Positions 12,198 to 46,992 of a DNA stretch of 54,122 nucleotides are shown here, piece by piece (positions within the stretch are counted from its first letter, which is position 1; each line of letters starts with the position of its first letter). Origin of the DNA: a virus; the IMG/VR virus record IMGVR_UViG_3300025674_000055, positions 1-54,122 of that record; one strand, written 5' to 3'. The notes below the pieces were generated by a model. It was given only the letters and a program-made list of their open reading frames with translations. It did not search any database and was not told where the DNA came from. The translations under genes and the position numbers were made by a program.

Positions 12198-12274
12198 TGG
12201 CCTTCCCTGAGAGATTCGAACTCCCGACCTAGTGATTAGAAGTCACTTGCTCTATCCAGCTGAGCTAAGGGAAG
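12198..12274 (-). tRNA. tRNA-Arg (anticodon UCU)
   Basis: 77 nt, complete cloverleaf: acceptor CTTCCCT/AGGGAAG, D arm GCTC...GAGC, anticodon stem AGTGA/TCACT around loop CTTCTAA, T arm GGGAG TTCGAAT CTCTC, discriminator G and encoded CCA. It reads AGA, a codon used often in this phage's late genes. Confidence 0.97.
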
Positions 12275-23996: not shown

Positions 23997-25100
23997 TTAC
24001 TCACATACGCTCGATTTTACCGATACGTTTCTGCGTGTCAAGGCATTATTCGCACTGTCGAAGGTATGCTTCATGTATGGTCGCACAGATGCAACATGAT
24101 TGTGTCCAGTCACCGACATGATCTGTGGCAATGGCACACCCTTGTCAACCATCTGTGTCACTCCTGTTCTACGTAAGTCCATGAGACGTAGCTCTTCAGG
24201 TAGGTCAGCCTCTCGCATGATACGTCTACCTACTTTCGACAGACGTTCCATACGATAGGGTGTGAACACTCCACGTTCAGGCTTAGGATATGGTGCAACA
24301 TACTTCTGAAAACCAAAGTCAGCTTTCTGCTGTGACAGCATGTAGTGCAGGTCATCTGAGATAGGCAGAAAAACTTCTGCTCTACGCTTGCTTTGTTCCA
24401 GATGTAGTTGCCTCTCGTCCAAGTCTATGTTATCCCATGTTAGCATCCTCATGTCACCCAAACGTTGGCACCACTCGTATGCCATGTGTATTATGATTCC
24501 CACGTTACGATAGTCAAAACTAGAATAAGCAACATCAAGGAAAGAGATAACATGTTCATGCTCCCACACTACTTTGCGCTGCTTAGGCTGCTTGCGCTTT
24601 ATGTTTCCAAATGGATTCACGAAAGCTTCTTCCATCGTGATCGCATAGTTATACACTCGACTAGCAGAGGTAGCCACGTGATTCGCAAAGCTGACACCCC
24701 GCTTCACCCATTCCTCATACACCTGCTTTGCAACCTTAGATGTAACAGACTGATACTTTCTGGTGCCAAGCTTGTCACATAATTCAGTGAGACAATACCT
24801 GTAATCTGCTTTAGTTGTCTCACGTAACATGTTGAAATCATTAGACTGATAATAGAACTCGACAAGATCAGACACAGTGCTGCTGTTGTTTAGCTTCACA
24901 ATCTGTGATTGAACATCACGATACTGATCGATGGCATCGTTATACTGTCGTGCAAGCTTACGCATCTCACGCACATCACTTGGCATCTCGCCACGAGTCA
25001 CAAGCCCTGCGTCTACCCACTTCTGTGGTGGGTTGTAACGGAAAGAGATGTCACCCGAAGGTGACACCCGTCGTTGCACATAGCGTGGCAGCTTTACCAT
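23997..25100 (-). CDS. int: Tyrosine recombinase / integrase
   Basis: 367 aa. N-terminal SAM-like core-binding region (~75-170), then the catalytic domain: Arg I in RLGDMRML (R213), Lys in SKRR (K238), D-L-R-R in LMDLRRTG (R310), H333 in TGHNH and nucleophile Tyr342 in RPYMKH. The usual first His of HxxR is Met307. It lies within the replication block, next to the primase and a DUF932-like gene, without an adjacent intergenic attP, repressor or excisionase that I can see. Confidence 0.92.
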   Translation of the reverse strand: MVKLPRYVQRRVSPSGDISFRYNPPQKWVDAGLVTRGEMPSDVREMRKLARQYNDAIDQYRDVQSQIVKLNNSSTVSDLVEFYYQSNDFNMLRETTKADYRYCLTELCDKLGTRKYQSVTSKVAKQVYEEWVKRGVSFANHVATSASRVYNYAITMEEAFVNPFGNIKRKQPKQRKVVWEHEHVISFLDVAYSSFDYRNVGIIIHMAYEWCQRLGDMRMLTWDNIDLDERQLHLEQSKRRAEVFLPISDDLHYMLSQQKADFGFQKYVAPYPKPERGVFTPYRMERLSKVGRRIMREADLPEELRLMDLRRTGVTQMVDKGVPLPQIMSVTGHNHVASVRPYMKHTFDSANNALTRRNVSVKSSVCE

Positions 25101-36249: not shown

Positions 36250-36265
36250 TTAAAGTATGACAGAG

Positions 36266-36294
36266 TTGCAATAATTGCAATAGTATGGTATAAC
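36266..36294 (+). promoter_or_regulatory. Sigma-70 promoter for the DUF1127/lysis/packaging operon
   Basis: TTGCAA, 17-nt spacer, TATAAC. The transcript should start near 36301, about 60 nt before the DUF1127 gene, right at a hairpin. Confidence 0.75.
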
Positions 36295-36310
36295 TAAGTA
36301 TGTTATAACT

Positions 36311-36354
36311 ACTCCTGTTGGACCATCTGGTCCTTATGTATACACAACAGGAGT
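36311..36354 (+). promoter_or_regulatory. RNA hairpin burying the DUF1127 ribosome binding site
   Basis: ACTCCTGTT (36311-36319) pairs with AACAGGAGT (36346-36354), which contains the Shine-Dalgarno CAGGAG. A second hairpin, GGACC/GGTCC, lies inside. This leader occupies almost all of the predicted 5' UTR, so it could be a thermosensor, a protein-binding site or a ligand switch. Confidence 0.72.
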
Positions 36355-36359
36355 TAAAA

Positions 36360-36563
36360 ATGCTGAAGCGCATTTACAATTATTTAATTAGCTATCAAGA
36401 AAAAAAGGTTGCACTCTGGCAAATTGACAACCTCAGTGATGCACAGCTTAAAGACATTGGCTATACACGCAGCCAGCTATACGAGGCAGTATATGGCAAG
36501 CCCATCCAAAACAAAGTCAAGAGTAAACGAAGCTGGCAACTATACAAAACCAGCAATGCGTAA
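36360..36563 (+). CDS. DUF1127 (YjiS-like) protein
   Basis: 67 aa from the ATG at 36360 (CAGGAG 6 nt upstream). Residues ~19-45, WQIDNLSDAQLKDIGYTRSQ, match DUF1127: L..L.D.QL.DIG..R..I. In alphaproteobacteria such small proteins bind RNA or affect phosphate and carbon metabolism. A host-derived regulator in a phage late operon is unusual. Its 3' part overlaps the next gene by 71 nt. Confidence 0.85.
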   Translation: MLKRIYNYLISYQEKKVALWQIDNLSDAQLKDIGYTRSQLYEAVYGKPIQNKVKSKRSWQLYKTSNA

Positions 36564-46963: not shown

Positions 46964-46992
46964 TTGACAATACAGTTTACTCACTGTATAAC
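46964..46992 (+). promoter_or_regulatory. Strong sigma-70 promoter before the capsid gene
   Basis: TTGACA (perfect), 17-nt spacer, TATAAC (5 of 6). Begins an mRNA with a ~220-nt leader for the major capsid protein. Confidence 0.85.

Follow-up and report, generated by a model that had tools for sequence, protein, structure and literature searches.

A Shine-Dalgarno-covering hairpin and a host-type promoter box form a conserved leader cassette of DUF1127 genes in HMO-2011-type phages

The ribosome binding sites of T4 e, soc, 49 and I-TevI and of Aeh1 mobE are sequestered in read-through mRNA, and transcripts from an internal late promoter lack the 5' strand of the sequestering structure (PMC3014915, PMC2988022). 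The leader described here resembles these locks in that the Shine-Dalgarno (SD) sequence or start codon is predicted to be hidden in RNA from upstream promoters, with a promoter lying at or within the 5' strand. It differs from them in belonging to an unrelated, podovirus-like group of phages infecting Alphaproteobacteria, in having a promoter that by its sequence is sigma-70-like and host-type and not a phage late promoter, and in occurring as one cassette per genome, on a single gene family and with a conserved upstream box.

The gene family concerned is DUF1127, whose members are RNA binders and also PhoR-binding phosphate regulators (PMC12501420). Leader-based control of a DUF1127 gene, with a ribosome binding site inside a hairpin, is known from Sinorhizobium meliloti, where the duf1127-1 leader acts by uORF-dependent transcription attenuation (PMC12218461). 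The S. meliloti hairpin covers the ribosome binding site of the uORF and control is by premature termination, whereas the phage stem holds the SD of the gene itself; attenuation of the duf1127-1 kind was rejected for the phage genes because their leaders, counted from the predicted start, are only 18-56 nt long (median 26 nt). At the promoter level, VtlR (LsrB) is a LysR-type activator with the published box GCAT-N3-TG-N3-T; among its direct targets is atu1667, which is orthologous to Brucella genes likewise activated by VtlR (PMC7486931). One paper ranks VtlR as the primary regulator of the Brucella DUF1127 proteins (PMC12595884); another regards LsrB as confined to Rhizobiales (PMC11975290).

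The DNA analysed (the window; IMG/VR record IMGVR_UViG_3300025674_000055, 54,122 nt) comes from an HMO-2011-type phage. Its TerL is 87% identical to that of Roseobacter phage CRP-1 and 81% identical to that of HMO-2011, the TerS, TerL and portal genes are syntenic, and the replication genes are of the HMO-2011 type; a DNA polymerase, a DnaB-like helicase, a primase, a ribonucleotide reductase and a tyrosine integrase are encoded on the minus strand. The integrase suggests a possibly temperate lifestyle, as in CRP-3, for which integration has been demonstrated (PMC9038755). The features discussed are listed in Table 1.

Table 1. Features of the window and of its DUF1127 leader
Feature	Position	Strand	Basis or remark
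DUF1127 gene, 67 aa	36360..36563	+	Pfam PF06568 match above gathering score
Degenerate copy of the box GCATA[AG]CGGGnnTGCA, reading TATGACAGAGTTGCA	36256..36270	+	Aligned with 54 other phage leaders
Promoter P1, TTGCAA-17-TATAAC	36266..36294	+	Sequence; predicted start near 36301
Promoter P2, extended -10 TGTTATAAC abutting the 5' arm	36301..36309	+	Second unit of a 15-bp direct repeat
5' arm of SD-locking stem, ACTCCTGTTG	36311..36320	+	100% complementary to 36345-36354; arms covary among relatives
3' arm, CAACAGGAGT, with Shine-Dalgarno AGGAG at 36349-36353	36345..36354	+	Fold and inverted repeat
Nested GGACC-ATCT-GGTCC hairpin inside the loop	36320..36333	+	Predicted fold; not conserved in relatives
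Tyrosine integrase	23997-25100	-	
tRNA-Arg(TCT) gene	12198-12274	-	Replication strand

The initial annotation of the window had proposed the DUF1127 gene, and the open reading frame scored 24.8 bits against the Pfam DUF1127 profile (cut-off 23.3), in agreement with that assignment; the match was restricted to profile positions 18-37 and to the C-terminal half of the protein. PF06568 was also matched by all 12 aligned phage relatives. The window protein cannot be called arginine-rich, with 3 Arg (and 9 Lys) in 67 residues; the median over 96 phage copies is 10% Arg and the family average about 14% (PMC12501420). Arginine richness is a tendency within the family and no defining trait. A single-sequence structure model predicted three helices with a mean pLDDT of 70. 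By analogy with the family members described (PMC12501420), the phage protein might act in phosphate control via PhoR or in RNA binding; control of host mRNA during infection, as the initial annotation had suggested, is a conjecture.

The ribosome binding site was likewise found in a leader hairpin, as the initial annotation had claimed: the two arms form a perfect 10-bp stem, the SD sequence lies in the 3' arm and the loop holds a nested hairpin of 5 bp. The local fold of -19.4 kcal/mol compares with -10.2 +/- 2.4 kcal/mol in dinucleotide shuffles (z -3.8; 0/200).

To see this hairpin in its phage group, 55 non-redundant phage DUF1127 leaders were gathered from two protein-based scans and from named phages. 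Uninterrupted stems of 7 or more Watson-Crick pairs that include the SD were present in 36 of the 55 leaders; the figures for comparison are 21 of 387 other SD-bearing starts on these contigs (Fisher p 2e-24) and roughly 10% in shuffles. In permutation tests, which ignore relatedness among the leaders, 162 flank pairs were counted around the CTCC/GGAG core against 82.8 +/- 9.6 (maximum 109) when 5' regions were swapped 1000 times between phages, and in a 25-sequence alignment two-sided changes were found at 6 of 9 pairs, with 14 cells against 5.3 +/- 1.8 (0/500 shuffles). The covariation signal was gone when the partner was slid by 1-3 columns. The loops of the relatives measure 6-45 nt and have no common sequence; what is conserved is the structure of the hairpin, not its sequence.

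These data bear on two readings that do without a functional RNA hairpin. Inverted repeats beside -10 boxes are often operators, and the repeat might accordingly be a DNA site for a repressor; this is very improbable, since the repeat sequence varies between phages with paired changes, the distance between the arms ranges from 6 to 45 nt, and the position of the 3' arm is always tied to that of the SD or the start codon. That the leader is functionless, through chance or plain descent from one ancestral leader, would fit the similar leaders of close relatives, and is hardly credible in view of the excess over control starts, the covariation and an independent scan described below; a chance origin of the cassette is already refuted.

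The cassette was absent from T7-like phage CRP-118 (Autographiviridae), from its relatives L011 and L101 and from the jumbo phages Atu_ph07 and Phosso, which rules out that it is a trait of every phage DUF1127 gene. The DUF1127 gene of CRP-118 (L124) has no hairpin and overlaps the end of the preceding gene; the L011 and L101 contigs encode proteins very similar to those of CRP-118, and their DUF1127 genes also have no hairpin. In phiM12, a large Sinorhizobium phage, the DUF1127 gene (L123:1001) has a 9-bp SD-covering stem (CTTTTTGGT/ACCAAAAGG), with neither the box nor a -10 at the arm. Two contigs carry a second small gene 3' of DUF1127 with a similar layout and the SD in the 3' arm (L050:6428 and L067:946, both on the + strand); in L050 the arms of this second gene surround an internal -10-like element (ACTCCTG..TGGTATAAT..CAGGAGT).

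The position of the promoter relative to the hairpin was analysed with -10 elements chosen by sequence and with start sites predicted 7 nt past the -10. In all 55 leaders the box GCATA[AG]CGGGnnTGCA is followed after 38-41 nt (39 nt in 31 leaders) by a -10 of the form TGnTATAA[C/T], whose variants are TATAAC, TATAAT and TAAAAC. The hairpin pairs with the SD or the start, and its 5' arm abuts the -10, overlaps it or lies upstream of it. In several phages (L019, L020, L039, L050, L073 and L086) the -10 lies between the two arms, so that the local RNA there would have no hairpin.

Fold predictions separated the two kinds of transcript. The SD was paired (>0.5) in the read-through RNA of 51 of the 55 leaders, and in only 9 of 55 when the RNA started 7 nt after the -10. 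Shifting this start 15 nt upstream gave 47 locked leaders of 55, and a shift of 3 nt was enough to lock 26. The contrast of 51 with 9, together with the shifted starts, indicates that the geometry of -10 and arm is tuned such that the local RNA escapes the lock and the read-through RNA is caught. Little locking was predicted for leaders L014 and L070.

The independent scan searched viral contigs, some of which overlap the set of 55 leaders, with a DNA pattern of box plus -10 that was blind to protein and hairpin. Of the 77 places found, 76 lay 5' of a DUF1127 open reading frame; among the 52 distinct leaders, locking was predicted in 48 for the read-through RNA and in 7 for RNA begun at the local start. 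In 1.65 Mb of phage sequence (both strands), nearly every combination of a -10 with an SD hairpin belonged to a DUF1127 gene. The box occurred 76 times in DUF1127 leaders and 9 times elsewhere in the phage sequences, 2 of these 9 being further copies of DUF1127 leaders, and the possibility of a general phage promoter box was rejected because the box is almost confined to DUF1127 leaders.

The gene, the box and the hairpin were all present in CRP-9, which had been missed by tblastn and was found by HMM. Neither a DUF1127 gene nor the box was found in the stretches searched of HMO-2011, MW202701 and HTVC033P. Integrase relatives were detected in 9 CRP phages. A cassette tied to lysogeny only was rejected, since CRP-9 and CRP-13 carry it with no detected integrase relative.

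In the window the CGGG core of the box ends 39 nt 5' of the second -10; the window copy of the box matches the consensus at only 5 of 9 core positions and retains TTGCA. TATAAC is credible as a -10 because TTGACA-17-TATAAC, with a perfect TTGACA, recurs twice in the window (46964-46992, + strand; 18109-18081, - strand) and because the Caulobacter RpoD consensus GCTANAWC also ends in C (PMC8144410). The first of these two promoters lies 5' of the coat gene and the second is on the replication strand.

The initial annotation had placed a sigma-70 promoter and a transcript start just before the hairpin. P1 agrees with this, and its predicted RNA retains the entire hairpin and is fully locked in the fold prediction. 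However, the -10 at the position conserved in all 55 leaders is that of P2, which repeats the P1 -10 15 nt downstream; its predicted start near 36316 falls within the 5' arm, and the local transcript would lose that arm. In the predicted P2 RNA the stem is gone, with the SD still about 0.62 paired, now in another helix that involves the coding region. Owing to this residual pairing and to the fully locked P1 RNA, most relatives illustrate the design more cleanly than the window does.

A hairpin wholly contained in the RNA from P1 would suit an RNA switch acting on the transcript of the gene itself, as had initially been suggested, for instance a thermometer or a ligand switch. An RNA lock on the ribosome binding site was indeed found, but the conserved lock would act on read-through RNA. 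A thermometer does not agree with the prediction that the lock is stable and keeps the SD paired at all temperatures from 5 to 45 C. Against a riboswitch stand the loops, which differ in length and share no sequence, and the Rfam search of the window, which had a tRNA as its sole match and none at the DUF1127 leader. Moreover, tandem TATAAY elements 14-16 nt apart, as in P1 and P2, are present in only 16 of the 55 leaders, and in the phages with the promoter between the arms the local RNA would be free of the hairpin. A switch on the P1 RNA is thus quite improbable. Transcripts beginning upstream, which the initial annotation had counted as a refutation, are probably the very point of the lock.

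The hairpin and the box give different results when compared with bacterial DUF1127 genes. Among SD-bearing DUF1127 genes of Alphaproteobacteria, only 2 of 52 have a stem of at least 7 pairs; the hairpin is therefore a phage feature, and its inheritance from host leaders was rejected. The box, on the other hand, is shared. The pattern GCAT-N3-[GTA]G-N3-T was found within 200 nt upstream of 35 of 90 host DUF1127 genes, compared with 2.9% of shuffles and 11 of 418 other open reading frames. One host family, made up of genomes related to G025 and probably belonging to Rhodobacteraceae to judge by its CcaF1-like proteins, had the box in 23 of 30 cases; a -10-like hexamer follows after 37-40 nt, equivalent to the phage spacing of 38-41 nt. 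The typical element of this family, TGCTGCATAGC[AG]GCATTG-N10-ATTGTGCAnnTGCAGCA, precedes the -10, and no description of it was found in the literature examined. In L300-L329 the extended element sits 90-140 nt upstream of DUF1127.

The box of the phage leaders bears a partial resemblance to that of the VtlR/LsrB-activated promoters of Rhizobiales, in its GCAT-N3-nG-N3-T form and its place 5' of DUF1127 genes, and differs from it at one position: GCAT-N3-[GTA]G-N3-T is present in 30 of the 55 phage leaders, and the TG of the VtlR box is mostly GG or AG. Because of this change and of the description of LsrB as unique to Rhizobiales, a related LysR-type regulator, other than VtlR/LsrB itself, is the likely candidate for reading the box in Roseobacter hosts.

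Our preferred reading, which we consider probable, is that the leader is an expression insulator in which a lock of the T4 gene e/I-TevI type is joined to a host DUF1127 promoter, either captured or mimicked, and that DUF1127 is translated only from RNA of that promoter. Read-through RNA from upstream phage genes would contain the 5' arm, which would pair with the SD, the start or both and leave DUF1127 untranslated. The -10 of the gene's own promoter abuts the 5' arm, falls within it or lies downstream of it, and in the local RNA the ribosome site would be free because most of the arm is missing. The promoter would be of host type; its GCAT-N3-NG-N3-TG box, some 39 bp 5' of the -10, resembles that of the VtlR/LsrB activators. 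Phage DUF1127 would then be made only when the host polymerase and the host DUF1127 regulator use the promoter, as in early infection, stress or lysogeny, and would be off during long phage transcription.

The same lock could serve the opposite timing. As in T4, it might silence early read-through RNA while the local promoter acts as a phage-controlled late promoter of the terminase and structural operon, the manner in which T4 e, soc and I-TevI behave (PMC3014915, PMC2988022). This late role is the main rival because DUF1127 heads the terminase region in many genomes: in relatives with enough sequence it lies on the late strand, 5' of TerS and TerL, often 130-170 bp before TerS. We regard it as possible, if unlikely. 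In the sequence of the DUF1127 leaders no phage-controlled late promoter was seen, the -10 being sigma-70-like and the box being shared with bacterial DUF1127 genes, and the near confinement of the box to DUF1127 leaders is unlike a late-promoter system. Host control of timing is favoured over the late role since the box is shared with host DUF1127 genes.

Morons of temperate phages are accessory genes with their own host-type promoter in the late region. Phage DUF1127 is also an accessory gene with a host-type promoter in that region, and differs from morons in its additional translational lock against read-through and in its presence in CRP-9 and CRP-13, where no integrase relative was detected. 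A bolder version of the insulator reading, for which we see the balance as even, is that phage DUF1127 is a moron under a host regulator and insulated from the phage, that its lock evolved many times over in sequence, and that the host regulator alone sets the timing of DUF1127.

The elements of the cassette have each been described before; what appears to be new is to find them combined on one host-derived gene throughout a phage group. A survey of HMO-2011-type genomes mentions neither promoters nor hairpins nor DUF proteins (PMC9038755), and no description of regulatory RNA in such phages was found in the literature searched. The cassette was not reported, by title or abstract, in the literature on DUF1127, read-through locks of ribosome binding sites and roseophage promoters, a coverage that takes in few subscription journals.

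Phages of the HMO-2011 type rank among the most abundant in the sea, and the cassette links their infections to a family of small proteins for which a connection with PhoR and phosphate control has recently been made. The model is directly testable in the cultured Roseobacter phages CRP-1, CRP-3 and CRP-13, and the host-side finding, a conserved box at fixed spacing before DUF1127 genes within a single family of Alphaproteobacteria, has a use of its own. If the model is true, a gene transcribed as part of an operon would be translated only from a host-type promoter, and the phage would carry a host regulator without its mistimed synthesis.
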